28,950 nt of DNA from IMG/VR virus record IMGVR_UViG_3300029267_001812, positions 1-28,950 of that record. One strand, given 5' to 3'. Shown piece by piece: positions 124 through 21,013 of the stretch. This DNA is from a virus. Under the pieces are notes generated by a model. That model saw only the letters and a list, made by a program, of their open reading frames with translations. It did not search any database and was not told where the DNA came from. A program made the position numbers and the translations under genes. Every line of letters begins with the position of its first letter. Positions within the stretch are counted from its first letter, which is position 1.

Positions 124-138
124 TAATCACCGCTTCTT
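112..138. terminator. Bidirectional terminator with both stop codons in the loop
   Basis: The arms AAGAAGCGG (112-120) and CCGCTTCTT (130-138) are a perfect 9-bp inverted repeat with a 9-nt loop. The loop carries the TAG of the left-edge rightward gene (121-123) and the TGA of the leftward scaffold gene (127-129). Rightward transcripts run into CTTCTTTTC after the stem. Leftward transcripts have a pyrimidine-rich CTTCTTCTT run. The arms also encode the last residues of both proteins. Position, symmetry and tails fit an intrinsic terminator serving both strands. Confidence 0.75.
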
Positions 139-921
139 TTCTGCCATCATTTCGCGCTGTTTAGCATCTCTCCAGCGTTGAAGCATGGCGTTTTCTTCAG
201 CCTTATTCTCAACGCGCTTGCCAGATAGAACCTCTTTGCGATAAGCTAAACGCTCTTGCTCAACTTCGCTGGATTTCTCAAACCTTTGAACCGCTGCACC
301 GCCTGTCGTGCTTGGTACCGCATCCTTGGCCGGCATCATTAATCGCAATGAATTAAGCGCTTTAAAGTCATCAACCGATTGAACCATGTTGCGCAGTGTC
401 TGCTTGGTAAAAGACTGATTTAACCAGTCGTTTACAGACTTCACCGTCATTGCATCGTTCTCAGTTAATTCCTTGACGGTCTTGGCTTCCAGGTCTTTAG
501 CCGCAGCATCGAGTGCTTCGTTATAAGCCTTGGTTAAATCGGTGAGGCCTTTCTGTGATAAGCCCATCTCTTGAAGCTTGGGGGCCATGGCTCCAATCAG
601 CGGGTCATCTTTGGCAAGCCCTGCATCTTCAAAGTTATAGCCATCTTTCGGCGCACCCCAGCTGCTTCCCATCTTCTTTTGCAAGTGATAGTAAGCTTCG
701 GCTTGTGCGTCAACAGATTTGTATTTGTCTTTTAGAAACCAGTCCGGTTGCTCAGGTTGCTCAGGCTCGCTGGTCGCTGGCTGCTCAGGCTCATCGCTGA
801 ACAGTGTTTGAGATTCTTCTGTAGCTGAACCCCCCGAAGAACTTCCTTGCTCCTCGGGGATGGCTGCAACTTCAGTATCCGACACGCTCTCACCCGTGTC
901 AACTCCTGACTCTTCGCTCAT
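127..921 (-). CDS. Capsid assembly (scaffolding) protein
   Basis: A 264-residue protein. The first ~55 residues are Ser/Glu/Pro-rich and acidic, ending in two PEQPEQP-like repeats. Next comes WFLKDKYKSVDAQAEAYYHL (about residues 61-80), the hallmark opening of podoviral scaffolds, followed by the KMGS..GAPKDGY segment. The rest is charged and helical, ending in a basic tail (EKKR). By analogy with T7 gp9 and relatives it would nucleate procapsid assembly with the coat protein and then leave. The start codon overlaps the upstream gene's stop in an ATGA (918-921), indicating translational coupling. It is the last gene of the leftward operon in the window. Oddly, the coat gene is not adjacent but on the other strand at 16.2 kb. 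Family is recognised from motif and context. Confidence 0.85.
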   Translation of the reverse strand: MSEESGVDTGESVSDTEVAAIPEEQGSSSGGSATEESQTLFSDEPEQPATSEPEQPEQPDWFLKDKYKSVDAQAEAYYHLQKKMGSSWGAPKDGYNFEDAGLAKDDPLIGAMAPKLQEMGLSQKGLTDLTKAYNEALDAAAKDLEAKTVKELTENDAMTVKSVNDWLNQSFTKQTLRNMVQSVDDFKALNSLRLMMPAKDAVPSTTGGAAVQRFEKSSEVEQERLAYRKEVLSGKRVENKAEENAMLQRWRDAKQREMMAEKKR

Positions 922-1163
922 GAATTATCCTTTGGCTTAGCCTTAACAACGTTCACGCCGTGCCTAAAGGCGCGTATCAAATCATTGCGGCCTTCATTAA
1001 AAAAGCCCCAATGTTCCGCTTGTTCTTTTCCAGGAATAATCACGGGCGCATAAAAGAACTGTCGCTCTAAAGCCTCCAAAAACTCTTTGCCCTTTGGATT
1101 AGCTTCAAACAATTCATAGCAATATTGGTGAAATTCTGTTGGTTCCGGTGCTTTCGATGTCAT
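918..1163 (-). CDS. Bbp19-like small phage protein
   Basis: 81 residues between portal and scaffold. It carries the pattern GKEFLEALERQF, then Gly/Pro-containing IIPGKEQ, then FNEGRNDLIRAF. This matches the usual layout of Bbp19-like proteins (Bordetella phage BPP-1), which often sit beside portal genes: a 'G..fL..L...F' helix followed by an 'eG.R.....i' helix. The exact function is unknown; a minor head role is inferred from position. Both ends overlap neighbours by 4 bp (ATGA at 1160-1163 and 918-921), so expression is probably coupled to portal and scaffold. Confidence 0.65.
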   Translation of the reverse strand: MTSKAPEPTEFHQYCYELFEANPKGKEFLEALERQFFYAPVIIPGKEQAEHWGFFNEGRNDLIRAFRHGVNVVKAKPKDNS

Positions 1164-2758
1164 TGCTGGACTCCCTCCTCTACCGCTTCGGCAATTCCCT
1201 GTGCCGTCTCTTGCATCTCTTCTGCGCTCTTGATGTTTTGTAAATCAATGCCCTCGTTCTGCGCCAAAGCCTGGGCCGTTTCAATGGTCTTGAGTGTAGC
1301 GGACGCGATCTCAGGCCCAACCATCGACGCATACGAGTTGTACCATGACAACATATTTTGCGTGTTGAGTCTACCCCGGGAAATCATCAGCGGTGTTTTA
1401 TATCTCAAACCAATAACTTCGCCGTCAAGACTGAGCAACTTGTCTTTAAAAGTGCTGTCTAAATCACCGAAAGTCTCGGGCAGAACTTTGTTAATTAAAA
1501 ACATGATGCGCTTAACAAGCGGGTCAAAGAACTCTCGCTGCAATCGTGGAGCCATCGCTGCAAAGCTTTCGTTAGATTCTTGAAAGCGAATGTTAGCCTC
1601 AGTTGCTGTCATGTCCGGCGACGTGATAGGGCCAAGCGGTGCGGTGTACAAGATGTCATTGATTTGCTGGCGCATATCTGCCACCAACAATTGGCCGAAT
1701 TGAATATTCCCGGCTTGGGGAAATGCTGAAATTGGCCAATTACCCATAATCATTTGAACCGGAATAATTGAACCCGGCTTTGCTTGAAACGTGTCTTGAT
1801 TGTATGCGCTGTCGCTCGCTGCCATATACATGGGGTTAGCTTGGAAAGCCGCGGCTGTTAACTCATCACCGATAGCCTCGTTAGTTGTTGCAGCGGTTGG
1901 CACAGCTTCAAGCGATGGGCCTCTTCCCCTGGATTCTCCAGCAAGTTTGCGGAATCTAAAGATAACCCAAGGCCACGATGCACTTTCAATTTCATAAAGT
2001 ATTTCACCCTTGCTTGTCATCACAACATACTTGTAGCGAGATTTTGGCGATGCGTCGTAGTCAACGTAGCTGCACTCATAGATGTCACACTTCTCGCAAC
2101 TCTCTTTATTTTCCGGCTTCTTTGCCCCCGGCCAGACCTGCTGAATTTGCTCAACTTTCATCTGCATCCAGTCGCGAAACACAGCACTAAAGCCATCCTT
2201 TGCATCAGCTTCAATCATAACTTGTGACACCGGAGCTGTTTCAAACTGCAGCGGATTAGACCGGTCGCCCTCGTTTACCGCGAGAAAACCAGTAGATATT
2301 GATGCATCACTGATTGCCTCTTCAACCGCAACATAGAAATTAGAGGACTCAATTATTTTGAAAAAGCGGTTGGTTATCTTTTGAGTCTCGCGTAACGCTG
2401 CTTGATACAGCTCGCTTGACTCATCGCCAAACATATCGCCGGGCACAAACTCTACCCAATGCTGGCCTTGCGGAACCATGCCAACCATCATCTTATTAAC
2501 AAATCTTCTATGCGCAACGGGCAATGTTAAATCATAAACGTCACCATCTCGCTGCTGGCCGGGTGCAACAGCACCGGCTCTCCCGTGATTAACCCACGGG
2601 TTGTAATTCGGAATGATATAATGATAAGCGTTTTCCAAAAGAGAGCGCCACATATCCATGTCTGACTTAGCATCATTGCGCCGCTTGAGCAATTGCTTAA
2701 CGTCAACCTTCCTGGATTTCTCAATGTTTTTGCTTGCCTTTGTTAAGACATCACTCAT
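1160..2758 (-). CDS. Portal (head-to-tail connector) protein
   Basis: A 532-residue protein with the head-tail connector signature of T7-like portals. The N-terminal helix (about residues 18-45) leads into NAYHYIIPNYNPWV. It is followed by DLTLPVAHRRFVNKMMVGMV and PQGQHWVEFVPGD, which correspond to the conserved 'a...laa.l...l.p....Wf.l' block. The central region has WPWVIFRFRKLAGESRGRGP, a typical '..R.y..geiyGrGp' portal motif, and the C-terminal part has the TATEANIRFQE helix. Twelve copies would form the DNA channel at one capsid vertex and dock terminase and tail. Length matches T7 gp8 (536). It overlaps the genes on both sides by ATGA. It shares an operon with recombination genes rather than with the coat protein. 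Confidence 0.9.
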   Translation of the reverse strand: MSDVLTKASKNIEKSRKVDVKQLLKRRNDAKSDMDMWRSLLENAYHYIIPNYNPWVNHGRAGAVAPGQQRDGDVYDLTLPVAHRRFVNKMMVGMVPQGQHWVEFVPGDMFGDESSELYQAALRETQKITNRFFKIIESSNFYVAVEEAISDASISTGFLAVNEGDRSNPLQFETAPVSQVMIEADAKDGFSAVFRDWMQMKVEQIQQVWPGAKKPENKESCEKCDIYECSYVDYDASPKSRYKYVVMTSKGEILYEIESASWPWVIFRFRKLAGESRGRGPSLEAVPTAATTNEAIGDELTAAAFQANPMYMAASDSAYNQDTFQAKPGSIIPVQMIMGNWPISAFPQAGNIQFGQLLVADMRQQINDILYTAPLGPITSPDMTATEANIRFQESNESFAAMAPRLQREFFDPLVKRIMFLINKVLPETFGDLDSTFKDKLLSLDGEVIGLRYKTPLMISRGRLNTQNMLSWYNSYASMVGPEIASATLKTIETAQALAQNEGIDLQNIKSAEEMQETAQGIAEAVEEGVQQ

Positions 2759-2979
2759 AGACCTGTGCCTCCCTGGCCACCCAATTGATTTGCTGCGAGT
2801 TCAAAGAAGCCGCCTCCGCGCGAGCGCAATGCTCTTTGTAAGATTGTGTTGCTTCGCGCCCCCTCTTGAGATGCTCTATCCCTAAGCATTTGCGTTGTGC
2901 GTCTCAGTTCTTGTGCTTGAATTTCTGCTCGCTCTGCTGCGGCTCTTGCTTCTCTGCGTGCTTGACGTCCTGTATCCAT
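2755..2979 (-). CDS. Small helical head-region protein, unknown function
   Basis: I use the ATG at 2979 (MDTGRQARREAR), giving 74 residues, because GGAG lies 10 nt upstream. The longer in-frame start at 3060 has no comparable site and would double the overlap with the preceding gene. The protein is mostly one Ala/Arg/Glu/Gln-rich amphipathic helix (about residues 5-50), then a GGGFFELAANQLGGQGGTGL tail with a Gly-rich end. Small helical proteins at this place, just before the portal, are common in podoviruses. I do not recognise a named family. Its stop overlaps the portal start in an ATGA, and its start lies within the end of the 172-residue gene. Confidence 0.6.
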   Translation of the reverse strand: MDTGRQARREARAAAERAEIQAQELRRTTQMLRDRASQEGARSNTILQRALRSRGGGFFELAANQLGGQGGTGL

Positions 2980-3422
2980 AGCTGTGTAATCTCCATACCT
3001 TGATGCGTATCTGAAATTAACTTGATGTAAAGTTGCCACGGTGTCCAGACGAATGGCCACGACACTCCGAGCATGTACTTAACTAAGCTAACACATGAAA
3101 GTATAGACGGCCTCAGGATTGTTGGTTCATTGTGCGGCGTGAGCATTATCTTTAGTATTGTGTCACCGGGTTTGTTGATGAGATATTGATTCATTAAGTC
3201 TGCTTCCCAGCGCACCGGGAGTATGTCTATCATGAGATCGAAGCGGTTGGGGTCGATGCAAGTCCAGCCCAGTGGTTGTTTTTCTATTGCAAAGACATGT
3301 TTGAAGCCTGGTGTAAACCATGCGCTTCCAGTGAACTCTGCGCTGTCCTGAAAGATTAAATAGATTTCTCGTTTAAAGTCCGGGGCTTCAAATCGACTGT
3401 GATGATTGTGAGCGTTTCGCAT
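2904..3422 (-). CDS. Head-region protein with His...Cys motif, possible permuted papain-like fold
   Basis: 172 residues. The core is FTPGFKHVFAI (His42), GWTCIDPNRFDLMIDIL (about 52-68), and later SILSCVSLVKYMLGV (Cys110) with FVWTPWQLYIKL (124-135). This 'G..H.fa.......DP....i..l......tCv..vK..LG.....TP..Ly..L' arrangement is familiar to me from proteins near podovirus portals. The order His then Cys, with Cys opening a helix, is that of circularly permuted papain-like (YiiX/LRAT-type) folds. That fold assignment is inference. The C-terminal ~20 residues are Gln/Lys/His-rich and poorly conserved-looking. The start (ATG at 3422) lies within the preceding 65-residue gene and has only a weak GGAT upstream. 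Confidence 0.65.
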   Translation of the reverse strand: MRNAHNHHSRFEAPDFKREIYLIFQDSAEFTGSAWFTPGFKHVFAIEKQPLGWTCIDPNRFDLMIDILPVRWEADLMNQYLINKPGDTILKIMLTPHNEPTILRPSILSCVSLVKYMLGVSWPFVWTPWQLYIKLISDTHQGMEITQLWIQDVKHAEKQEPQQSEQKFKHKN

Positions 3423-3553
3423 GACACATCCGCTGTTTCTGTAATAATATAATCATCGTCCTTGATGATTAACTTGGTTCCTTGCGCGGGACGAACTCTA
3501 CTGTAAAGCTCGTCCACTCTTTTAGCTAGTTTTTTCAGCGAATTTGATTGCAT
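3356..3553 (-). CDS. Small hypothetical phage protein (65 aa)
   Basis: A 65-residue protein beginning with a short helix (LKKLAKRVDELYSRV), followed by a probable beta-rich part (TKLIIKDDDYIITETADVSC). No family recognised. A GGA five bases before the ATG is a weak Shine-Dalgarno. The gene overlaps both neighbours: its start lies inside the end of the 53-residue zinc-ribbon gene and its 3' end overlaps the 172-residue gene by about 67 bp. The long overlap makes it less certain than its neighbours, but the tiling of start and stop codons supports a real coupled gene. Confidence 0.5.
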   Translation of the reverse strand: MQSNSLKKLAKRVDELYSRVRPAQGTKLIIKDDDYIITETADVSCETLTIITVDLKPRTLNEKSI

Positions 3554-3683
3554 CTAAATCCAATTCCTTGAGGCACTTCCTGCACCTCATCTTCACTGCT
3601 TGCTTAATACCGCCTGCAACGCGCCATTCTGTAATAACATATTCATGATCACACTGCTCTGGTTTCTTTTTTGATTCTGCCAT
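3522..3683 (-). CDS. Small zinc-ribbon-like protein (53 aa)
   Basis: Reading leftward from ATG at 3683 to TAA at 3522-3524 gives 53 residues. It contains CDHEYVITEW near the start and MRCRKCLKEL later. Cys11, His13, Cys34 and Cys37 make a C-x-H ... C-x2-C pattern typical of small phage zinc ribbons. GGAAG lies 7 nt before the ATG. The start overlaps the end of recT and the end overlaps the next gene, as elsewhere in this operon. A nucleic-acid or protein-binding role is likely, but the partner is unknown. Confidence 0.65.
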   Translation of the reverse strand: MAESKKKPEQCDHEYVITEWRVAGGIKQAVKMRCRKCLKELDLDAIKFAEKTS

Positions 3684-4437
3684 TGAGTTCTTCCATCATC
3701 CTTTGCCCTTGCGTTGATTCTACTGTCGTTTCGAGTTCTGCGTCAATGTAATCGTCGACAGTGTGTACCCCTGCCTCCATATACTCTTCAGCTGACGCAG
3801 CGTTACGCGCAGTCGAACCCAAAGGCAGGTACTTAACCATTCTTTTCAACACTGTCTTACGAGCCATGGCTTGCCAGTCGGTTACCCAGGGTCCTTTCTT
3901 AGTTCCCCTGATTTTTTCAATGCTTTCTGTGGACATGCGTTCGATCTCTTTGTTACCGTTCGGCAACACGATGATTGCGTACGCGCCGATGGCCGGCTTG
4001 TGCGTGAAAAACCCTGCTTCATGCTTGACTTTTCGTTCGCTACCCAAATCTATATAGAATGTCTCGCCCTCGTGCACGACTTGTGAACACACAGAGGTGT
4101 CCGGGAACTCACGATAAATGAGTTCCAGGTATCCTAGATAGCCGACACAGGGTGTTGCCTCACCTTTGAACGGAAGCAGATAGAATTTCTTTTCATCCGG
4201 GTCGGGCGACAGGCCTAACTTCGCTGCAAAAATCAGAGACTTTGCTATTGACTCTGGCTTGCAGCTCATAAGACTTTGCTTGCCAGACCGATCTTTTTTA
4301 ATCATTGACACGCAGCCGGCAAAGAATTGCTCTCTACTCAACGGGCAATCTTTTGGATACACATAATCAATGCGGCCGCGGACACGTTGCAAATAGTCTG
4401 AAATATCTTGATACTTGTTAACAATCGCGTTAGACAT
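3649..4437 (-). CDS. recT: RecT-family single-strand annealing recombinase
   Basis: 262 residues from the ATG at 4437, chosen because GGAG stands five bases upstream; an in-frame ATG at 4452 lacks this. RecT hallmarks are visible. There is an N-terminal LSREQFFAGCVSMIKKD segment, then SIAKSLIFAAKLGLSPDP and the EKKFYLLPFKGEATPCVGY block matching 'G...ayliPyk.e.....GY.G.ielayR'. The HEGETFYIDLGSERKVKH block and GPWVTDWQAMARKTVLKRM ('W...w..Ma.Kt..r.l.k.lp') follow. It would anneal complementary strands exposed by the adjacent exonuclease. Its start overlaps the exonuclease stop by 8 bp, so the pair is co-translated. It is followed by zinc-ribbon and head genes in one operon. Confidence 0.92.
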   Translation of the reverse strand: MSNAIVNKYQDISDYLQRVRGRIDYVYPKDCPLSREQFFAGCVSMIKKDRSGKQSLMSCKPESIAKSLIFAAKLGLSPDPDEKKFYLLPFKGEATPCVGYLGYLELIYREFPDTSVCSQVVHEGETFYIDLGSERKVKHEAGFFTHKPAIGAYAIIVLPNGNKEIERMSTESIEKIRGTKKGPWVTDWQAMARKTVLKRMVKYLPLGSTARNAASAEEYMEAGVHTVDDYIDAELETTVESTQGQRMMEELNGRIKKETRAV

Positions 4438-5353
4438 ACTCACTCCAATCAATCTTACGGGGGGTGAACTTGATATACTCTGAGGTTTTCAAATACTTTT
4501 TGTGTTCACCGGGGTTATCTTCTTTGAATTTCTTTGCATCAAAACGCTCTGTCTTTACACGAGACACTGATGCCAAGGTACGTTCATTGCCATCCGTCAC
4601 GCTGCTGGCTGTACCAAAACCCAAGATTAAATCTGCTTTGATTGAGTCTGCTTCTTGTTTCAATTCCCTGATTTTTTCTTCGAGTTCGTTGAGTCGCATG
4701 AGCTTTTGAACCTCGTCTTCAGCGGCTTCTCGACTGACTTCTCGTTCCAGCCGGGATTCGAGCTGTAAGATATCTGATACCTGTAGTGGCTCGGGAGCCA
4801 CGTCTGCCAAGACGTTTTCTCTCCAGAATTTTTCTTCAAGCTGCATGAGTGCATCGATGAAGCCCTGGTCTCTCTCAACGATATAGATTCTGAAGTCGCT
4901 CCCGCGGATGAGCACCACAACATATGCTCGATTAGCGTCGGTGACAGCGAGGTAATGTTGGACCTGGCAGTAGTATGTTGGCGGGATTTCGTTTGTTCCT
5001 TCTCCCCAACCTTTGTCGCTTGCTGTGGTTTTAACTTCGACAATTGCGTTTTCGCTGACCACGCGTCCGTCAATATTCGCAGCAGCGTGCGGGTATTTTT
5101 CACATCGAATAAGTCCCTCATCTCTTTTAACCTCACAATCCATTTCATCTTCAAACCACTTTATCAACGCCTCTTCTAATTTGTTTCCAGCTTTAACTGC
5201 GGGCTTGTCAGATATATCCGGCGGTGTCCATCGTCCAGTTTTCTCAGCCCAGAGCTCCACTGGCGTCTTGTAGTTGCTGTATCCGGCAACAACACCCGCG
5301 TCACTTCCGCAGACATAGTCGAGCCTCTCGCTCAATTGTTCTTGTGTTAACAC
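4430..5353 (-). CDS. YqaJ/lambda-exonuclease-type recombination nuclease
   Basis: I start this at GTG 5353 (307 residues), because GAGGAG lies just upstream with about 7 nt spacing; upstream in-frame ATGs at 5368 and 5404 have no such site and the 5404 one lies in the promoter. The PD-(D/E)XK core is clear: VKAGNKLEEALIKWFEDE (the 'G...E' helix), HAAANIDGRV (Asp95), NAIVEVKTT (Glu106, Lys108) and YCQVQHYLAVT (Gln-containing helix). The C-terminal third has a charged coiled-coil-like stretch and the FDAKKFKEDNPGEHKKYL tail seen in YqaJ proteins. It degrades one strand of dsDNA to supply RecT. It is the first gene of the leftward operon and overlaps recT. Confidence 0.9.
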   Translation of the reverse strand: MLTQEQLSERLDYVCGSDAGVVAGYSNYKTPVELWAEKTGRWTPPDISDKPAVKAGNKLEEALIKWFEDEMDCEVKRDEGLIRCEKYPHAAANIDGRVVSENAIVEVKTTASDKGWGEGTNEIPPTYYCQVQHYLAVTDANRAYVVVLIRGSDFRIYIVERDQGFIDALMQLEEKFWRENVLADVAPEPLQVSDILQLESRLEREVSREAAEDEVQKLMRLNELEEKIRELKQEADSIKADLILGFGTASSVTDGNERTLASVSRVKTERFDAKKFKEDNPGEHKKYLKTSEYIKFTPRKIDWSEYV

Positions 5354-5378
5354 GCTAGTACTCCTCATCAAATTGTGG

Positions 5379-5411
5379 TTGCATATTATCACGCAATATT
5401 GCATAATGCAA
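5379..5411. promoter_or_regulatory. Overlapping divergent promoters with 13-bp palindromic operator
   Basis: Rightward: TTGCAT (5379-5384), 17 bp, CATAAT (5402-5407), serving the ribbon-helix-helix gene. Leftward: TTGCAT (complement of 5406-5411), 17 bp, TAATAT (complement of 5383-5388), serving the exonuclease operon. The palindrome TTGCATAATGCAA (5399-5411) covers the rightward -10 and the leftward -35. A second half-site TTGCAT lies 20 bp away, about two helical turns. The same 13-mer, inverted, lies at 12081-12093. An autoregulatory operator for the adjacent ribbon-helix-helix protein is the natural inference. Confidence 0.65.
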
Positions 5412-5435: not shown

Positions 5436-5618
5436 ATGGCATCACAAAATGAAGTTCTTTATTTAAGGGTTCCGTCCAAAGTTAAAAAAGATTTTGAAAA
5501 AAAATGCTTAAAGCTTGGGTGCTCGCAAGCGTTTATTGTGAGGCGCATGATAGAGGAATGGCTGGCGGGTGACTTGCATAAGTCCGGGGGGTGTGATACT
5601 TTCGTGCTCAATAAATAA
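5436..5618 (+). CDS. Ribbon-helix-helix DNA-binding protein (probable repressor)
   Basis: 60 residues from ATG 5436, which follows an ACGGAGAG Shine-Dalgarno; longer in-frame starts run through the promoter region and are rejected. Residues NEVLYLRVPSKVKKDFEKK form a beta strand then helix, and GCSQAFIVRRMIEEWL the second helix, the Arc/MetJ-type ribbon-helix-helix layout. Such dimers bind tandem palindromes. It is the first rightward gene, directly beside the 5379-5411 palindrome and divergent from the exonuclease operon, so it probably represses both promoters and possibly the 12081-12113 promoter (inference). It is followed after 26 bp by a second protein of the same general fold. Confidence 0.75.
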   Translation: MASQNEVLYLRVPSKVKKDFEKKCLKLGCSQAFIVRRMIEEWLAGDLHKSGGCDTFVLNK

Positions 5619-5644: not shown

Positions 5645-5824
5645 ATGTCAAGAAAAGAAGTTGAACTCACCAAATATGGTCGCCCAAAACTTGAGCGCGG
5701 TCATTTCTTTTTAAGCCAAGATGAAAAGATTAGGCTTATAGAGCTAGCCGAACAAGAAAACATGTCACTCTCAATGCTAACGCGCTTAGCTGTGCGCAAC
5801 GCATTGCGCGAAGGTGCTGTATGA
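5645..5824 (+). CDS. Second ribbon-helix-helix-like small protein
   Basis: ATG 5645 to TGA 5822-5824 gives 59 residues. After a basic N-terminus (KYGRPKLERG) comes HFFLSQDEKIRLIELAEQEN and MSLSMLTRLAVRNALRE, a strand-helix-helix pattern like the Arc family ('..lS.eE...l..lA...g.s.S...R.av...l'). AGGAAAG lies 6-8 nt upstream. Its stop overlaps the start of the next gene in ATGA. The pairing of two such genes may give two repressors with different operators, or an antitoxin-like partner; no toxin is evident beside it. Confidence 0.65.
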   Translation: MSRKEVELTKYGRPKLERGHFFLSQDEKIRLIELAEQENMSLSMLTRLAVRNALREGAV

Positions 5825-5940
5825 TCTCGGCGTTACAACAGATACTGCTTGAGCTTGAAGCTCTCAAGAAACAAAGCGATGCGCATGCACGGATAATTAG
5901 GCAGTTGGTTCAGCAGCTGCCAAGGCAGGAAGCAGCTTGA
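5821..5940 (+). CDS. Small helical protein (39 aa), unknown
   Basis: ATG 5821 overlaps the stop of the previous gene (ATGA), and the frame ends at TGA 5938-5940. The 39-residue product is a single heptad-like helix (SALQQILLELEALKKQSDAH...IIRQLVQQL) with Leu/Ile at regular spacing, suggesting a small coiled coil. No independent Shine-Dalgarno is needed if coupled. The function is unknown; its neighbours suggest a partner of the ribbon-helix-helix proteins. Confidence 0.5.
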   Translation: MISALQQILLELEALKKQSDAHARIIRQLVQQLPRQEAA

Positions 5941-5969
5941 AAAAAAGCAGTTGATCGCAGACAATAAAA

Positions 5970-6015
5970 AACCCCAACAGACGGTCTGATGGGGTTCACA
6001 ACATAACAAGAGGAA
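5970..6015 (+). repeat. Hairpin + Shine-Dalgarno cassette, copy 1
   Basis: The stem AACCCCA (5970-5976) / TGGGGTT (5990-5996) encloses an inner CAGA/TCTG pairing. It is followed by 11 nt and then AAGAGGAA (6008-6015), eight bases before ATG 6023. Copy 2 (6127-6172) repeats stem length, 13-nt interior, 11-nt gap and AAGAGGAA. Read leftward, the hairpin is followed by TTTTTT and could act as an intrinsic terminator for antisense or leftward transcripts. Read rightward there is no T-tract, so a 5' RNA-stabilising or initiation role is more likely. Confidence 0.7.
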
Positions 6016-6022
6016 ATATACT

Positions 6023-6079
6023 ATGTCTAAGCACTTAGTTCAAGCATTCGCGGGTGGCTGGTTATATTATCGTAAATAG
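6023..6079 (+). CDS. Micro-ORF (18 aa) with strong ribosome site
   Basis: ATG 6023 to TAG 6077-6079 encodes MSKHLVQAFAGGWLYYRK. The AAGAGGAA ribosome site eight bases upstream is well placed, and the preceding hairpin cassette is shared with the large gene at 6182. The peptide is aromatic and basic at its end. It may be a leader peptide controlling the downstream gene or a functional micropeptide; sequence alone cannot decide. It could also be the remnant of a duplicated gene start. Confidence 0.4.
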   Translation: MSKHLVQAFAGGWLYYRK

Positions 6080-6126
6080 TCGTGTAACTGATATTGAAAT
6101 AATTTTTGTCAACGTTAGAATAAGAA

Positions 6127-6172
6127 AACCCCGCACTACCACGTAACGGGGTTATCAACGAATCAAGAGGAA
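6127..6172 (+). repeat. Hairpin + Shine-Dalgarno cassette, copy 2
   Basis: The stem AACCCCG (6127-6133) / CGGGGTT (6147-6153) has a 13-nt loop, an 11-nt gap, then AAGAGGAA (6165-6172) and ATG 6182. The offset from copy 1 is 157 bp. The closing pair changes from A:T in copy 1 to G:C here, which is compensatory, while the loop sequence differs completely. Leftward, the hairpin is followed by TTTTC. Confidence 0.7.
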
Positions 6173-6181
6173 TACTACCAC

Positions 6182-7522
6182 ATGCAAAACATCTGTCAAT
6201 ACCAACAAACATCTTTTGTTAGCCAATCAACCTTACTAAACGGAGCACAGCCCATGGAAGCGGCCACCTCGGTGCAAGCAGCACGCCCAACAATATATAC
6301 AAAACCCGGCTCAAAGTGGCGTAAAGGTGATTCGGGCTATCTTCTGGATTGGGCTGACGCAATGTACGCCGAACTGGTTCCGAACCCAAAGCCGCCCGGA
6401 CGCGGTGTTAAGCCAATGATTAGAATGATCAATGCAACTGAGCGGGCTGTACTTAGGGTGATGATATATCGCCGCAATAGGTTAACAGGCCGAGTTCTTT
6501 TGCCGCAGTCGCAAATATGTGCACTCTTAGTTAAACACTATAATATTGATATATCAGAACGCCAACTTAGAACTGTTATCAAATCATTAACTGACAAACT
6601 TCCCAAATATTTTACTCGCGGTGCGCAGCAAGTACAGAGCACTCAATACGGAGTAAAGAGCACAGTCATATACACGCTTGAGTTGGAGCGAATAAATGAG
6701 TCACTTGGATTGCACCCATTCCATGGAATGCAGGTAAACCGGGACTCTAGCTTTACTGCGACTGTAGCGGAACAAAGTTCCGGTAAACAATATGAATATA
6801 TTATTAATAAAAATCATTCTATACATTCTAGAGAGACCGAAAGTAGAATGACTGAGAATGATTTTGAAAAACAGGGGGCAAATGTCGCAAGCACTGAGCC
6901 GCCTGTGGAACACAAACCCGAACCGCAAGACCAGGGGCAACGGCCGACCAGGGTGCAGTCAGCTGCGGGGCGTGGGGCATACGAAGATTTAGGCTTATGC
7001 GAGGTTGAAGGCTTCAGCAGTAAGCTAACTGAAGACCAGTCGAATCTTTGGGCCAAGATGGAACACCAGCGATGGGGGATCTATCCCGGGGTATTCGTGA
7101 AGATGCTCAAGACCCACGGAATCAACAAAGCGCTGGAGGCATATGCCAGGGTTCATGACTCAGCTGGTGTTCAAAATCCCGGGGCATACTGGAAAGCAAT
7201 CATGGACGGCAGGATTAGACTGGATTCTGGGAAATCTGAGGCCCGTGATGAGACTTTAGCAGAAAACGAGGCCAGTGATTGCGGTCGGGTTGAGAAAGCG
7301 CCCCCAGAGCGCTCAGAATCTGTTCCAGGGGTGGAGGAAACCATGGCAATGCTTTACGGTGATCAATACGTAGCACCAGCCCCGAATGGTCATTTAAGCC
7401 CGATTTGCAGTCAGTCGCTTGAAAAATATGGGGTGCCGCTGGGTCATGGGGGGATTGCGTACCTTGAGCGCAAGCCGGGTGCTACTCCGGAAGAGGCTTA
7501 CAGAATATTCCAAAGCGATTAA
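6182..7522 (+). CDS. Replication-initiator-like protein with winged-helix N-terminus
   Basis: 446 residues. The N-terminal domain (about 75-140) looks winged-helix: NATERAVLRVMIYRRNR, LLPQSQICALLVKHYNIDIS, ERQLRTVIKSLTDKL. The middle (about 205-290) is polar and probably disordered. A C-terminal helical block includes YPGVFVKMLKTHG and a QNPGAYW motif near residue 331, recalling the 'V.NPgayl...l' ending of DnaD/phage O-type replication proteins. I infer binding to the phage origin and helicase loading, but no ATPase is visible. The start at 6182 follows the cassette-2 ribosome site at a long spacing. ATG 6254, with GGAG 8 nt upstream, is a serious alternative and would remove 24 low-complexity residues. 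Confidence 0.6.
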   Translation: MQNICQYQQTSFVSQSTLLNGAQPMEAATSVQAARPTIYTKPGSKWRKGDSGYLLDWADAMYAELVPNPKPPGRGVKPMIRMINATERAVLRVMIYRRNRLTGRVLLPQSQICALLVKHYNIDISERQLRTVIKSLTDKLPKYFTRGAQQVQSTQYGVKSTVIYTLELERINESLGLHPFHGMQVNRDSSFTATVAEQSSGKQYEYIINKNHSIHSRETESRMTENDFEKQGANVASTEPPVEHKPEPQDQGQRPTRVQSAAGRGAYEDLGLCEVEGFSSKLTEDQSNLWAKMEHQRWGIYPGVFVKMLKTHGINKALEAYARVHDSAGVQNPGAYWKAIMDGRIRLDSGKSEARDETLAENEASDCGRVEKAPPERSESVPGVEETMAMLYGDQYVAPAPNGHLSPICSQSLEKYGVPLGHGGIAYLERKPGATPEEAYRIFQSD

Positions 7523-12080: not shown

Positions 12081-12113
12081 TTGCATTATGCAATACAAAA
12101 ACGTCGCTGTCAA
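12081..12113 (-). promoter_or_regulatory. Consensus leftward promoter with 13-bp operator
   Basis: Reading leftward: TTGACA (complement of 12108-12113), exactly 17 bp, CATAAT (complement of 12085-12090), so a full -35 consensus and 5/6 of -10. The palindrome TTGCATTATGCAA (12081-12093) covers the -10. It is the exact reverse complement of the palindrome at 5399-5411, where it also covers a CATAAT -10. Strong promoter plus shared operator implies repression by the same factor, probably the ribbon-helix-helix protein at 5436. Confidence 0.75.
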
Positions 12114-15110: not shown

Positions 15111-15154
15111 TAACCGAATTCGGTTAAATTTAACCGAATAAAATCTATTCGGTT
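15111..15154. repeat. Four-arm AACCGAAT inverted-repeat array
   Basis: TAACCGAATTCGGTTA (15111-15126) is a perfect 16-bp palindrome. It is followed by AACCGAATA (15132-15140) and TATTCGGTT (15146-15154), a 9-bp repeat with 5-nt loop. All four arms share AACCGAAT, so RNA from this region could fold in alternative pairings, or DNA could bind two dimers with centres 24-25 bp apart. It lies between the 31-residue gene (whose stop is at its edge) and the lysin, 31 bp upstream of the lysin start. Confidence 0.75.
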
Positions 15155-15862: not shown

Positions 15863-16236
15863 TTCCGCCCTCTTTTCTAAGTCAGTGTTCCCAAGTTCAA
15901 ATAATGGCTGTTATATGAACTTCATAGTTGGTTATCATTCATCTTCTAACCGCGCTATTTCAGTCAACAGACTTGGAACTTTCATCACAAAAAAAGTACA
16001 CAAGATTGCATAAGTTGACTGTTCAACATCCAAGCCGCACACAATATCAAGCAGCAGATACAAGCCGACTGCTTCTAATAAAAATGTGGGTGGCGCGGGC
16101 AAAAGTTTCATTGTCGACTATACTTACATGGACAGCCGGACCCACTCAACTAACTTCCGATACCCATGCCGGAAAGCTCATGTGGTCACTCCTAGTCAGC
16201 GTTAAAAGGATTAACAGAGACACAGGAGGGATTACC
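15863..16236. other. 374-bp divergent leader before the capsid gene
   Basis: This separates the leftward 55-residue gene from the major capsid gene, so it must hold promoters for both. No clear -35/-10 pair stands out for the capsid; TATACT occurs near 16120 with a poor -35. Stems: GTTGA/TCAAC (16013-16026), GTGGGT/ACCCAC with adjacent GGC/GCC (16086-16094 with 16135-16145), and TTCCG/CGGAA (16155-16174). An open frame runs through much of it in phase with the capsid gene and another carries one in-frame stop at 16011-16013, but neither has a ribosome site. I treat it as a structured 5' leader. Confidence 0.5.
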
Positions 16237-17076
16237 ATGTCTCAAGATTTAGACCAAATTCTCATCGAGCAATTCTTAAGTGAAGCTCACATCGAATTCC
16301 AATCAAAAGGCTTTTTGTTAGAGCAAGCTGTTCGCATGAAGACAGGAACAAAAGGAACCAGCGTTCACTTTCCTGTTTTTGGCAACGGAATTGCTAACCA
16401 AAAAGCACCACAGGATACCGTCACACCTTTGAACATTTCATCTAGAGATGTCTCAGTGACATTGGAAGATTGGTATGCAGCTGAATATGTAGACCGCTCT
16501 TTCAAAAACAAAATCGCTGTTAATGCAACAAGCGAATACTCACAAATTTGTGCGATGGCTTTGGCTCGTCGTTCAGATCAAATGGTCATCGACGCTGCAA
16601 CAGCTGTGACTTATGCAGCCTCCCCAACATCAGCTCAGGGCACAGACATCGTGGCTGGCGGTACCGGGTTCACCTGGGACAAGTTCCGAGCAATGGTTAA
16701 AGCCCACAGAGCTAGAGCAGCCGGTGGCGACATCTATTGTGTGATGGATGCCGAAGCTGAAGAAGATTTGATTAACGAACAAGAGTTAACAAGCTCTGAC
16801 TTTGTCAATCAAAAAGCCATTGCAGGCGACGGCTTAAACGGTATGACGATTATGGGCGTTCACTTCATTGTGTTGCCTGATATGCCAGAAGGTGGGTTGC
16901 CAAGCGGTGTTGCGTACAGCTGGAACAAAATGGCAATGGGTATGGCAATGTCTGAAAAACTTGGCGGCGACATCAGCTGGGAAAACAAACACGCATCCTA
17001 TCTAGTGAACATGTGGTTAGAAGCTAACGCTGTCAACATCGACCCACTCGGCTCTGTTCGCGTCAACTTTGTTTAA
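16237..17076 (+). CDS. Major capsid protein
   Basis: 279 residues from ATG 16237, which has AGGAGGG six bases upstream; the in-frame extension upstream is rejected for lack of a site. The sequence fits podoviral coat proteins: a start rich in helix (DLDQILIEQFLSEAHIEFQS), VTLEDWYAAEYVDRS (E-loop/P-domain type), then ARRSDQMVIDAATAVTYAAS. The C-terminus VAYSWNKMAMGMAMSEKLGG leads into a segment ending VNIDPLGSVRVNF, the usual '...A.....idp.G.v.v' closure. Presumed HK97 fold, main shell of the head. It starts the late operon and is followed 14 bp later by a small capsid-associated gene and a terminator. The scaffold gene is on the opposite strand 15 kb away. Confidence 0.88.
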   Translation: MSQDLDQILIEQFLSEAHIEFQSKGFLLEQAVRMKTGTKGTSVHFPVFGNGIANQKAPQDTVTPLNISSRDVSVTLEDWYAAEYVDRSFKNKIAVNATSEYSQICAMALARRSDQMVIDAATAVTYAASPTSAQGTDIVAGGTGFTWDKFRAMVKAHRARAAGGDIYCVMDAEAEEDLINEQELTSSDFVNQKAIAGDGLNGMTIMGVHFIVLPDMPEGGLPSGVAYSWNKMAMGMAMSEKLGGDISWENKHASYLVNMWLEANAVNIDPLGSVRVNFV

Positions 17077-17090
17077 GGGAGTAAACAATT

Positions 17091-17363
17091 ATGGCTTTTG
17101 ATATTAAATACATGCAGAAAGTAAGTGCAGGCGAAGCAAGCGATGGCTTGAACGTTTGGTCTTACAATGGAACTGCGACTGGTTCTAACGAAGCTCAAGC
17201 AACCATTGCTGGCTCTGGATATCTCAATAACTTCCAGTCTAGTGTTGCAAGCGCAACTGGCCCCTTGAAAGTGGGTGACAGTATTTTCTTAAATGGAAAT
17301 GACACCAACGCTCATGTTGCCGTGACTGCTGTAACACCTAACGTGACAGTTGCCGCATTCTAA
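17091..17363 (+). CDS. Small capsid-associated (decoration-like) protein
   Basis: 90 residues, Ser/Thr/Ala/Gly-rich and probably all beta: DGLNVWSYNGTATGSNEAQA, then GSGYLNNFQSS, VGDSIFLNGND, AHVAVTAVTPNVTVA. GGGAG lies nine bases before the ATG. Small beta proteins directly after the coat gene are common in podoviruses and decorate or stabilise the shell, or form head fibres; I infer this from position and composition. The two genes are expressed above the downstream tail genes because a terminator follows. Confidence 0.65.
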   Translation: MAFDIKYMQKVSAGEASDGLNVWSYNGTATGSNEAQATIAGSGYLNNFQSSVASATGPLKVGDSIFLNGNDTNAHVAVTAVTPNVTVAAF

Positions 17364-17388
17364 TAAAGCGTAAACTTCCTCAACCCTT

Positions 17389-17410
17389 GGGGGCATCACC
17401 GCCCCCTTTT
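17389..17410 (+). terminator. Intrinsic terminator after the capsid genes
   Basis: GGGGGC (17389-17394), loop ATCACC, GCCCCC (17401-17406), then TTTT. The perfect 6-bp G:C stem with T-tract is a clear intrinsic terminator, placed between the capsid pair and tail genes, 15 bp before the next ATG. With a short T-run it should allow some read-through, making coat mRNA far more abundant than tail mRNA. Confidence 0.8.
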
Positions 17411-17424
17411 CTTAGGGAGAAACG

Positions 17425-18042
17425 ATGCCAATCACTATCGCATCAGCTCAAACTGACATTGAAATAATCAATCAAGCTATCATGTTGTGCGGGCGAACGA
17501 GCATTGTTTCTGTCCAAACCAATGATAAATTCTCAACAGATGCTGCAGCGTTCTACGGTTCGCTGGTTCAATCAGAGCTTTCATCTAATCGATGGCGCTT
17601 TGCATTAAAGTACGCAGACATGGGAACACTTACAACGCTGACCCCAGAGTTTGAGGGTTGGCAATTCTACTGGGATTTACCAGGAGATTTGTTGATGCTG
17701 CATCGCATTGACCCTTGGGTAAATTACACTGTGTTCGGCGAGCGTGTTCTAACAACAACCAACGAAGGTCTTACTGCCATATACTCTCAATCCGTTCCGG
17801 TTTCAAAATGGCCAGAAGCTTTCAAGATGTATATCATCTATGCGTTGGCAGACATGCTTGCCATCTCTGTTACAACATCTAACCAGCTGCTTGGAAGAAT
17901 TAGGGATGGGCTGCAAACCTGGCAAGCTCGAGCACTGTTTGCCGATGGGCAGAACTCACCAAACCGCACACTACGCAGCAGCCCTTGGGTGAACGCAAGA
18001 TTCAAATGGGGTAACGGCAACAGAAACTATTGGAGTAGATAG
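17425..18042 (+). CDS. Tail tubular protein A (T7 gp11-like)
   Basis: 205 residues, near the T7 gp11 length (196). Signature parts: EIINQAIMLCGRTSIVSV at the start ('..N..L..iG...I.s'), VQSELSSNRWRFALKYADM, then the WQFYWDLPGDLLMLHRID block ('...y.lP.D.l.i..v') and WPEAFKMYIIYALADMLAIS. It forms the ring joining portal and tail nozzle. AGGGAGA precedes the ATG. Its stop TAG shares a base with the GTG start of the next gene, so the two are coupled. Confidence 0.9.
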   Translation: MPITIASAQTDIEIINQAIMLCGRTSIVSVQTNDKFSTDAAAFYGSLVQSELSSNRWRFALKYADMGTLTTLTPEFEGWQFYWDLPGDLLMLHRIDPWVNYTVFGERVLTTTNEGLTAIYSQSVPVSKWPEAFKMYIIYALADMLAISVTTSNQLLGRIRDGLQTWQARALFADGQNSPNRTLRSSPWVNARFKWGNGNRNYWSR

Positions 18043-20489
18043 TGGCGTATCAATCAACATCGAATGTCTTTAATCGGGGCGAATTAGACCCGAGCCTTTA
18101 TGCCAGAATCGATCTGCCAATCTACAACAAAGGTTGCCGCAAGCTCAGGAACATGATGCCGCTTTGGACGGGTGCCGCGCGAGTTGCACCGGGGACAAAG
18201 TACGTTGATGTTATCGTTGACCGCACCAATTCTAATGCGCCTATCACAGATTACACGCAAGTCATCGGCGCAGACTTTCAATACGATGCTGACAATGACT
18301 TGGTTTACACAGTAATTTTCAGACCGGACACCACAAGCACCGTTGCAATAGATAGTTATGACACTACCACACTGCTTGCATCTACACCGGCAGCTATGTA
18401 CACTGTTGCTAATGTGAAGGATTTGCATTTCGTGCCTGGGCAGCACAGGTTGTTAGTACTCCTCGGTTCTGTCCAGCCGCAGCAAGTTCAACGCGGGGCA
18501 ACCCCGGCGACGTGGACCATTGGCAATTTTGCTATCTCCGTGAAGCCGACCTATGATTTCACTGTCGTTGGGGGAACCCAATACCGCGTTGCAGGCTTCA
18601 CTTTTACGCCCGCAGCTACAACCGGAACCGGTATCAATCTTACCGCCTCGGGTGCAATCTTTACCAATAATCATGTTGGCGGATTGTTCCAAGGCAATGG
18701 TGGCACCATGCGTATCACCAGTATCACCTCGACCACCGTGGCTGTCGGCACCATTACAGCAGCCTTCGCCTCAACCGCAGCAATCGCGGGAACCAGTTCA
18801 ATCTTAACAGAAGTTATGTGGACATCGGGCGGCGGCGTTCCAGCAGGGGCAGACAGGGGGTGGCCAGAGCGTGGAAGATATTATACAAATCGTTTGGTAT
18901 TGGGTCGCAGTCCAGCCATTCCTAACTTTCTTGCCTTTTCAGTTGCAGGCGTCTTTGATAACTTTGATGACGAAACCGCAGATGCAACATCTGGATTCAA
19001 CGTGGGATTTAATGGAACCGGCGCATCGAATATCCAGACCATACTTTCTCATGACTCGTTCGTCGTCCTAACAAGCAACCAAGTCTTTGCGCAATCACCG
19101 CTTGTTGAAAATGCTATTAGCCCTGGCAATTTTTATGCACCACCAAACTGTCAGTCTCCCGCTTCTGAAACAGAAGCTGTCGTCATCGACAACAGAATAT
19201 TCCACGCATCGCTCAACAAAACACAGATAATGCACATTGGTTATGAAACGCAATCAGCAAAATACGTGGCACAACCAGCAACTTTGTTAAGCTCTCATTT
19301 GGTTGAATCTATCAGCAGCAATGGAACCTGGGAACCCAACAACGTTCAAGCGAGATTATATCTGGCAACTCAAGACAACGGTTCAATGTTAATGCTAAAC
19401 ACATTAATGGAAGAAGCGGTAATGGGTTGGTCACTTCGCACAACGCCTGGAAAATTCAGGCAAGTTATTGCTGACTCTTGCCAAGCCTCCAGCATTGTGG
19501 AACGTCAAGTTTCCAATTTGGCATCGGGTGGGACGGACGCATTAGATTATTTATGGATTTCTGACAGCACGTTTGCGGCATTTGATTTGTTAGACCAAGG
19601 CGCTGCAACGAATGCAATCTTTACTGAAAATAACAACTACTTGGTTGTTGCTCATCCTATGCCTTGGCGCAAGATGACCTTTACACTGGGGACAGTATCA
19701 AGCGCAAACTTGGCATTAACATTTGAATATTTAAATGCTAATGGCCAATGGGAAACCTTCACCCCCACTGATGCAACTACCGGTATGACAGTTAATGGCG
19801 CAATTAGCTGGACATTTGCAGATGTTGCCGGCTGGGTTCCAAAAGATTTGAATCTATCAGGGACTCAGTACGACCAATTGTTTTGGCTTAGAATTCAAAG
19901 AACAGAAGCAACCGTTGTTACAACGCCTGAGTTTACCAGCGTTATTAGCGACTTGGAAACCAGGCTCTATCTAGAGAGGTTTGACTTTGAAACGTACACT
20001 GATGCCACATCTAACACATCATCAAATGCAACGGGCGCTGTCACAGGCCTTACCCATTTGGCGGGCCACCAGGTATACGCCATTGCAAATGGTGTCACCA
20101 CCGGACCGTTCTTTGTTGATGAGACTGGGGCGACGAACGTTGGGAAAGAATACAGCAGTGTAGATATTGGAATCTTTGTTAAGCCCATCTTACAGCCAAT
20201 GCCGGTTTATACACCAACGCAGGAAGGTGATAATCTTTATCAAGAGAAATACATTCGTGATGTTTATTTAGACTATGTTGACTCACTGTACATGACGGTT
20301 GATGACCAGCCAGTTCCCCTGGTAAATGCAGGGGCTTATACCTTAGGACAAACTGTGCCGCCACAAACCGGTGTGCACATCTTCCATACCCGGCCTACTT
20401 GGGACCCCAGAGAAACCGTGACCGTTAGTCAGGCATTACCTGGACCCATGACAGTAATTGGTATTGGATACCACGTGGAGATAACATAA
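18042..20489 (+). CDS. Tail tubular protein B (T7 gp12-like)
   Basis: 815 residues (T7 gp12 is 794). The start is GTG 18042, overlapping the previous TAG (TAGTG), with GGAG seven bases upstream. The opening VFNRGELDPSLYARIDLPIY, then RNMMPLWTGAARVAPGTKYV, is the hallmark of the family ('Fn.GElsP.l..R.dl..Y..g...l.N..p...G...R.pGt.yv'). The rest is beta-rich, with GDRGWPERGRYYTNRLVLG-like text visible as RGWPERGRYYTNRLV and IDNRIFHASLNKTQIMHIGY. It forms the nozzle and anchors fibres. Its stop overlaps the next start as TAATG. Confidence 0.9.
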   Translation: MAYQSTSNVFNRGELDPSLYARIDLPIYNKGCRKLRNMMPLWTGAARVAPGTKYVDVIVDRTNSNAPITDYTQVIGADFQYDADNDLVYTVIFRPDTTSTVAIDSYDTTTLLASTPAAMYTVANVKDLHFVPGQHRLLVLLGSVQPQQVQRGATPATWTIGNFAISVKPTYDFTVVGGTQYRVAGFTFTPAATTGTGINLTASGAIFTNNHVGGLFQGNGGTMRITSITSTTVAVGTITAAFASTAAIAGTSSILTEVMWTSGGGVPAGADRGWPERGRYYTNRLVLGRSPAIPNFLAFSVAGVFDNFDDETADATSGFNVGFNGTGASNIQTILSHDSFVVLTSNQVFAQSPLVENAISPGNFYAPPNCQSPASETEAVVIDNRIFHASLNKTQIMHIGYETQSAKYVAQPATLLSSHLVESISSNGTWEPNNVQARLYLATQDNGSMLMLNTLMEEAVMGWSLRTTPGKFRQVIADSCQASSIVERQVSNLASGGTDALDYLWISDSTFAAFDLLDQGAATNAIFTENNNYLVVAHPMPWRKMTFTLGTVSSANLALTFEYLNANGQWETFTPTDATTGMTVNGAISWTFADVAGWVPKDLNLSGTQYDQLFWLRIQRTEATVVTTPEFTSVISDLETRLYLERFDFETYTDATSNTSSNATGAVTGLTHLAGHQVYAIANGVTTGPFFVDETGATNVGKEYSSVDIGIFVKPILQPMPVYTPTQEGDNLYQEKYIRDVYLDYVDSLYMTVDDQPVPLVNAGAYTLGQTVPPQTGVHIFHTRPTWDPRETVTVSQALPGPMTVIGIGYHVEIT

Positions 20490-21013
20490 TGGGTGCAACA
20501 GGTGGCGCAGCATTTAACGTACTATCAACAGCAGCTGGCACAGTTCTGGGAGGTCCAGCAGGTGCAGCCATTGGTTCAACGATTGGCGCAATAGGCCAAG
20601 GCGTTTTTGAGCGTAAAGAGCAGCGGGGTTTGGCGCAGGCTGAGCAGCAGATGCTCGACACTCAAGTCATGATGAATCAGGCGCAACGAGAGATTGTAGG
20701 CGCTGAACAGCAAGCAGCACAAGCTGTGGCCTTTCGAAAAGCCATCGCCCAGCAAGCAGCAAGGGCCTCCATTCGTGGCGGTGGTGGCAGTCTTGTTCGG
20801 CAGTTTGGCGCAGAAAGTCTCAGTAATTTCCAGCAATCTCAAGAAGCTTTGCAGCGTGGCGTTAGGCTGGGTGAACTGGAAAGCAGAATGCAGTTTGCTC
20901 AGAATCGATTGGTAGCTTTTGGGCAGAAGCGGAAGGCGGACACAGGCTTCCTGGATACTGCGCTAAAGGGCATCAATTTCAGTAAGTTAACAGGGGGCTT
21001 TGATGGCAAATGA
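20489..21013 (+). CDS. Internal virion protein A (gp14-like)
   Basis: 174 residues in the gp14 position, close to the T7 length (196). The N-terminus is a Gly/Ala-rich hydrophobic zipper (STAAGTVLGGPAGAAIGSTI), suited to membrane insertion. It is followed by Gln/Ala-rich helices (AQAEQQMLDTQVMMNQAQRE, AAQAVAFRKAIAQQAARASI), then a GGGG break and more helix. Such proteins leave the head with the DNA and form the outer-membrane part of the ejection conduit. Overlaps its neighbours: TAATG at its start, 11 bp at its end. Confidence 0.75.
   Translation: MGATGGAAFNVLSTAAGTVLGGPAGAAIGSTIGAIGQGVFERKEQRGLAQAEQQMLDTQVMMNQAQREIVGAEQQAAQAVAFRKAIAQQAARASIRGGGGSLVRQFGAESLSNFQQSQEALQRGVRLGELESRMQFAQNRLVAFGQKRKADTGFLDTALKGINFSKLTGGFDGK

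Follow-up and report, generated by a model that had tools for sequence, protein, structure and literature searches.

In the rolling-circle plasmid pMV158, the gene order copG-rnaII-repB places an antisense RNA between the gene for a ribbon-helix-helix (RHH) repressor and rep. RNAII is 48 nt long, with a 17-nt tail, an 8-bp stem carrying a 1-nt bulge, a 6-nt loop and a U-rich end, and it pairs with the mRNA directly upstream of the repB initiation signals and inhibits translation (PMC4485353). In the pMV158 sequence, the RNAII -35 box lies within the start of repB and the -10 box ends 10 nt before the repB ATG. In phage lambda, OOP RNA covers the end of cII in antisense orientation (PMC3985674, PMC7067206), and pO has been reported to affect replication by interference, with the OOP RNA itself seemingly dispensable for that role (PMC3985674). 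Plasmid R1, with the order copB-copA-tap-repA, combines a repressor, an antisense RNA against a short-peptide ORF leader, and rep (PMC5717011). In cluster K mycobacteriophages, the SAS/ESAS elements combine a repeated Shine-Dalgarno-like sequence ahead of small genes with inverted repeats immediately 5' of it (PMC3203893).

The DNA analysed here, referred to as the window, spans the 28,950 bases of a virus record and encodes a podovirus-type connector (PF12236), RecT, a YqaJ exonuclease, an SSB and a capsid protein. Judged by connector and terminase, the closest isolates are distant, at less than 35% identity, and include phages of Pelagibacter, Methylophilales, Vibrio, Alteromonas and Stenotrophomonas, among others. 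Two 46-nt units with near-identical hairpins, each containing AAGAGGAA, lie at 5970-6015 and 6127-6172 in the window, offset by 157 bp. Each consists of a 7-bp stem with a 13-nt interior, an 11-nt gap and AAGAGGAA, followed by a start codon, and the tandem geometry is exactly that described in a first-pass annotation of this DNA. The features of the region are given below, with rightward as + and leftward as -; ranks of promoter-like sites are among the 57,838 positions scored on both strands, and P values are from flank shuffling.

5379..5411, divergent: overlapping promoter-like sites, leftward for the exonuclease operon and rightward for the RHH operon
5436..5618, +: 60-aa RHH protein, CopG-family RHH_1 (PF01402, E=0.0014, narrowly missing the curated cut-off)
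5645..5824, +: 59-aa second RHH-like protein with similarity to plasmid copy-control ORF56 (NCBIfam ORF56, E=6.5e-4, under the cut-off; PDB ORF56, E=0.05)
5821..5940, +: 39-aa ORF overlapping the stop of the 59-aa gene (ATGA)
5937..5965, +: unit 1 rightward promoter-like site, TTGAAA, 17 nt, GACAAT (rank 66; P 0.005)
5970..6015: unit 1, AACCCCA 5970-5976, 13 nt, TGGGGTT 5990-5996, 11 nt, AAGAGGAA 6008-6015, ahead of ATG 6023
5970..5996, -: unit 1 hairpin, 7-bp stem and 13-nt interior, then leftward TTTTTTATT
5962..6007, -: predicted antisense RNA 1, about 46 nt, with 5' G6007, 11-nt tail GUUAUGUUGUG, terminator hairpin 5996-5970 and U-rich end (fold -16.3 kcal/mol)
5995-6022, +: rightward promoter-like site (rank 4)
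6008..6015, +: micro-ORF Shine-Dalgarno-like AAGAGGAA, complementary to the stretch between the minus-strand -10 box and the RNA 1 start
6015..6043, -: RNA 1 promoter-like site, TTGAAC 6043-6038, 17 nt, TATATT 6020-6015 (rank 9; P 0.013)
6023..6079, +: putative 18-aa micro-ORF MSKHLVQAFAGGWLYYRK, 18 codons
6094..6121, +: unit 2 rightward promoter-like site, TTGAAA, 16 nt, TAGAAT (rank 3), from which transcription is predicted to start close to the left end of hairpin 2
6127..6172: unit 2, AACCCCG 6127-6133, 13 nt, CGGGGTT 6147-6153, 11 nt, AAGAGGAA 6165-6172, ahead of ATG 6182
6127..6153, -: unit 2 hairpin, then leftward TTTTCTTATT
6119..6164, -: predicted antisense RNA 2, about 46 nt, with 5' G6164, 11-nt tail GAUUCGUUGAU, terminator hairpin 6153-6127 and U-rich end (fold -16.3 kcal/mol)
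6165..6172, +: Shine-Dalgarno-like AAGAGGAA of the 446-aa ORF
6172..6199, -: RNA 2 promoter-like site, TTGACA 6199-6194, 16 nt, TAGTAT 6177-6172 (rank 5; P 0.004)
6182..7522, +: 446-aa ORF, called Rep-like in the first-pass annotation and presumed from its position to be a replication initiator

The pattern CCCC-N11-19-GGGG-N8-18-AGGA matches three times in the window against 0.03 expected from shuffles, and AAGAGGAA occurs three times against 1.2 expected. The repeat reaches farther upstream than had been described, to TTGAAA at 5937 and 6094; between 5937-6024 and 6094-6181, 50 of 88 positions are identical, the best 88-nt self-match in the window at offsets of 100-400 bp, with a runner-up of 45/88. 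By element, identity between the units is complete in AAGAGGA (7/7) and TTGAAA (6/6), 6/7 in each stem arm and 6/11 in the gap, while the interior, at 4/13, is at the background level. This distribution supports the earlier proposal that the stem structure was kept as the interior changed. The reported A:T to G:C change of the stem-closing pair is also present and agrees with upkeep of a terminator stem, but the selection that had been read from it does not follow, since one changed base pair in two paralogous copies cannot by itself show selection and is not proof of such upkeep.

Terminators were scored on both strands of the window by combining stem energy and T-tail, which yielded 128 candidates. 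Among these, the unit 1 hairpin ranks first (score 23.5) and the unit 2 hairpin third (5.6), both on the minus strand, and the only other positive score in the window is at +17389 (19.7). The latter belongs to a strong rightward intrinsic terminator at 17389-17406 (GGGGGC...GCCCCC, TTTTCTTA), located directly downstream of the capsid gene and the small ORF that follows it. Neither unit hairpin scores as a terminator on the plus strand in the same scan; the sequences 3' of the hairpins there are CACAAC (unit 1) and ATCAAC (unit 2), and a rightward terminator or attenuator was rejected because the plus strand has no T-tract. The first-pass annotation had remarked in passing that the leftward T-tracts might stop antisense transcription, and the minus-strand terminator ranks bear this out: that aside on the leftward reading is the key point.

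Promoter-like sites were scored with a sigma-70 weight matrix set up from the base frequencies generally known for E. coli promoters. The absolute scores are therefore approximate, and the argument rests on ranks within the window; promoter and terminator scores are both consensus-based. Each hairpin has a minus-strand promoter-like site about 20 nt upstream, the -10 boxes of the two sites are in register at 157 bp, and an extended -10 TG was flagged by the promoter scan at the RNA 2 site. The stretch 5937-6199 holds four of the window's top nine promoter-like sites. Four sites there score at least 10.2, against a mean of 0.15 in shuffles, none of 5000 of which reached four. When a strict unit is defined as a promoter scoring at least 10 followed within 120 nt by a terminator scoring at least 5, the window contains exactly two, and these are units 1 and 2. 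Shuffled windows average 0.015 of them, with no more than 1 in any of 200, and a scan of other phage DNA totalling 1.08 Mb gave six, three of them being one conserved site. With relaxed thresholds, both positive controls were recovered, pMV158 RNAII with promoter and terminator scores of 10.9/28.8 and lambda OOP with 9.2/29.6; at 5.6, the unit 2 terminator is far weaker than the value of about 29 for either control. The rightward site at 5995-6022 was rejected as a promoter for the micro-ORF, because its start would fall within the micro-ORF and could not use the micro-ORF Shine-Dalgarno sequence.

Taken with the leftward terminators, the in-register minus-strand promoters predict one leftward RNA of about 46 nt from each unit. 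For both RNAs, the start was taken as the purine lying 8 nt beyond the -10 box (G6007, G6164), and the ends are inferred rather than mapped. Both predicted RNAs are complementary to the sense leader as far as the base preceding AAGAGGAA, which thus doubles as Shine-Dalgarno sequence and as the complement of the stretch from -10 box to start. As the RNAs start beside AAGAGGAA, the 11-nt gap of the earlier description is the antisense tail. Folding of the predicted RNA 2 hairpin leaves a 1-nt bulge and a 6-nt loop. In cofolding, the net gain is -53 and -59 kcal/mol for the cognate pairs and -6 and -1 for the crossed pairs. This preference means that the diverged interiors fit insulation of two antisense pairs, although two copies are not proof, and by the folding model each RNA should pair specifically with its own mRNA.

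We lean towards the prediction that two short minus-strand antisense RNAs act on both leaders, and the units are a probable tandem RNAII-like antisense module. Units 1 and 2 would then be minimal antisense-RNA genes in tandem with sigma-70-type promoters, the -10 box of each sitting between the Shine-Dalgarno sequence and the start codon of the rightward ORF. Transcription would begin just left of the Shine-Dalgarno sequence, pass through the 11-nt tail and the 27-nt hairpin, and stop at the T-tract; the resulting duplex with the leader would hinder ribosome loading and present a substrate to RNase III. In the manner of pMV158 RNAII, unit 1 would repress translation of the 18-aa ORF, which is present behind it as had been described, and unit 2 that of the 446-aa presumed replication gene, in the setting of an operon that opens with two RHH repressor-like genes. 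On this proposal, the hairpins would be kept because they terminate the antisense RNAs, and the interiors would differ because each RNA acts on its own leader. A search with Rfam covariance models for antisense and plasmid ctRNA families gave nothing at the gathering score, and weak sub-threshold minus-strand sRNA matches were not used. A type I toxin-antitoxin role for unit 1 was disfavoured, as the 18-aa peptide has no clear membrane helix by manual hydropathy inspection.

The hairpins might instead serve only as leftward terminators, stopping stray or incoming antisense transcription before the early regulators, with the minus-strand promoter-like sites being chance or minor; in a close variant, convergent transcription would interfere without RNA pairing, as proposed for lambda pO. 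The terminator scores of both hairpins suit either form, and the seeming dispensability of OOP RNA in lambda (PMC3985674) is a precedent for interference. However, two guards 157 bp apart within a rightward operon are hard to justify, and minus-strand promoters in register about 20 nt upstream of the hairpins form pairs that are scarce in shuffled windows (0.015 per window), and we regard this explanation as unlikely. The operon's RHH repressor could also bind the dyads as DNA operators, with RNA folding incidental. Two RHH-like genes do lie upstream and unit 1 is a nearly perfect 27-bp dyad, but unit 2 has lost the inner half of this dyad, and the exact palindrome TTGCATWATGCAA, found at both divergent promoter regions, is a better candidate, leaving operators at the units highly improbable.

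A main role as sense-leader cassettes, the emphasis of the first-pass annotation, would give each unit its own rightward promoter at TTGAAA and a 5'-end hairpin that stabilises the mRNA or sets ribosome access. The TTGAAA boxes are in register, that of the 5937..5965 site with that of unit 2, and both rightward sites score, the one at 6094-6121 among the best in the window; the rightward hairpins fold, and AAGAGGAA is among the best-kept elements. Of the hairpin and Shine-Dalgarno cassette proposed for the rightward mRNA, the kept structure stands, but such a cassette predicts neither the one-sided A-tract (the leftward T-tract) nor the in-register minus-strand promoters, and the hairpin leaves the Shine-Dalgarno sequence uncovered. 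As the main role of the units it appears quite unlikely, and a translational hairpin in the rightward direction is probably not central. Since a hairpin in the sense leader is the necessary mirror of an antisense hairpin, it may hold in addition to the antisense RNAs.

The antisense-RNA reading can be set against pMV158 element by element. As sequence features, both loci direct a promoter and an intrinsic terminator against the rep operon from between repressor and rep, in the order RHH repressor (here a candidate), antisense RNA (here predicted), rep (here presumed). The pMV158 placement of the minus-strand -35 box within the start of rep, and of a -10 box ending 10 nt before the ATG, matches unit 2. 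A short 5' tail and a terminator hairpin are shared with RNAII, as are the 1-nt bulge and 6-nt loop in predicted RNA 2, and the RNAII target directly upstream of the initiation signals has its counterpart in the start of predicted RNA 2 at G6164 beside AAGAGGAA. The loci differ in that there are two tandem units here, with a tail of 11 nt rather than 17 nt, a canonical Shine-Dalgarno sequence rather than the atypical signals of pMV158, and a podovirus rather than a rolling-circle plasmid as the carrier; the candidate CopG counterpart here consists of RHH matches below curated cut-offs (the PF01402 and ORF56 matches given above). The 446-aa ORF has no recognisable RepB relative in Pfam, NCBIfam, PHROG or PDB. 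The label Rep-like went unsupported, as searches of Pfam, PHROGs, NCBIfam, PDB and tblastn returned zero family, structure or tblastn matches, and an AlphaFold model made without an alignment (pLDDT 40) was not used. Its position, after the RHH genes and before the P63C and SSB genes, suggests that the protein may act in replication.

Lambda OOP is alike as a set of sequence features, being a short leftward RNA with a promoter at the start of a replication gene and an intrinsic terminator, facing an early rightward operon. Lambda pO/OOP shows that a unit of this kind can sit at the replication gene of a phage, and it cautions that what counts may be interference between polymerases rather than the RNA (PMC3985674). 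Unlike the two predicted RNAs, which cover the leader beside the Shine-Dalgarno sequence, OOP is longer and single, and was modelled at about 80 nt with two hairpins. Neither predicted RNA overlaps the 3' end of the preceding gene in antisense as OOP does: RNA 2 (6164-6119) lies entirely between the micro-ORF stop (6079) and rep, and RNA 1 (6007-5962) lies beyond the stop of the 39-aa ORF (5940). Plasmid R1 shares the succession of a repressor gene, an antisense RNA on a micro-ORF leader and then rep. While RepA synthesis in R1 is coupled to Tap, the 102 nt from the micro-ORF stop at 6079 to the ATG at 6182, together with hairpin 2, are too far for direct coupling here. The cluster K elements differ in that ESAS arms, which are imperfect 17-bp repeats, have a conserved sequence and recur at many genes; the window has just two units, unrelated to them in sequence, with a T-tract on one strand and minus-strand promoters.

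The larger picture would be a podovirus with plasmid-style dual copy control, by RHH repressors and an RNAII-like RNA, in which the antisense module has been duplicated into mutually insulated copies serving a micro-ORF leader and a replication gene; we put this forward tentatively, and it is doubtful in its full form. Dual copy control would suggest that this phage sets its own copy number, perhaps extrachromosomally. If true, antisense control of a replication gene in the style of pMV158 would extend to a podovirus lineage, and the two units would be a natural pair of insulated, paralogous antisense regulators whose stems were kept and whose recognition parts differ. It would also supply a cheap search rule for viral genomes without transcriptomes, namely a terminator pointing away from a Shine-Dalgarno sequence combined with a promoter over the start codon, a rule that recovered RNAII and OOP as controls.

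Relatives were sought in viral contigs with Rep, a Rep fragment, the exonuclease, the P63C protein, the portal and a second DNA pattern as queries, and in genome contigs with Rep and the portal. Only two contigs were recovered, L029 (99.9%) and L036, the latter from a lineage at 80% DNA identity. Across 10.6 kb, the only differences between L029 and the window are a 9-nt insertion and a single substitution, at 409 and 1874, neither of them in the unit region, and L036 ends inside the exonuclease, before the unit region; a diverged relative with the unit region was not found in the viral or genome contigs by these queries. A scan of viral contigs for AACCCC-N-GGGGTT-N-AAGAGGAA matched 32 contigs, which were rejected as relatives: all but the near-identical L029 are unrelated, and the inspected matches are mainly terminators 3' of leftward genes.

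Several further elements were observed. The 13-bp exact palindrome TTGCATWATGCAA occurs in the window at 5399-5411 and 12081-12093 only, both divergent intergenic positions where it overlaps promoter-like -10 boxes, and the second copy coincides with the top-scoring promoter-like site of the window (12113-12085); it is probably a common operator of the phage repressor. The connector and its neighbours are encoded leftward and the capsid and tail genes rightward (127-5404 and 15961-27030, respectively), and these opposite directions mean that the structural module is split and inverted relative to Vibrio podovirus relatives. A perfect self-complementary stretch of 22 bp, at 15118-15139, lies between the terminase block, which runs leftward, and the rightward capsid block. 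In three contigs of unrelated phages (L038 at 5136-5009, L046 and L048 at 5115-4988, all on the minus strand), the consensus promoter TTGACA-17-TATAAT is followed by a terminator-like hairpin with TTTTTT. This element is antisense to the first codons of a YqaJ exonuclease, and is a possible antisense RNA conserved across the three contigs.
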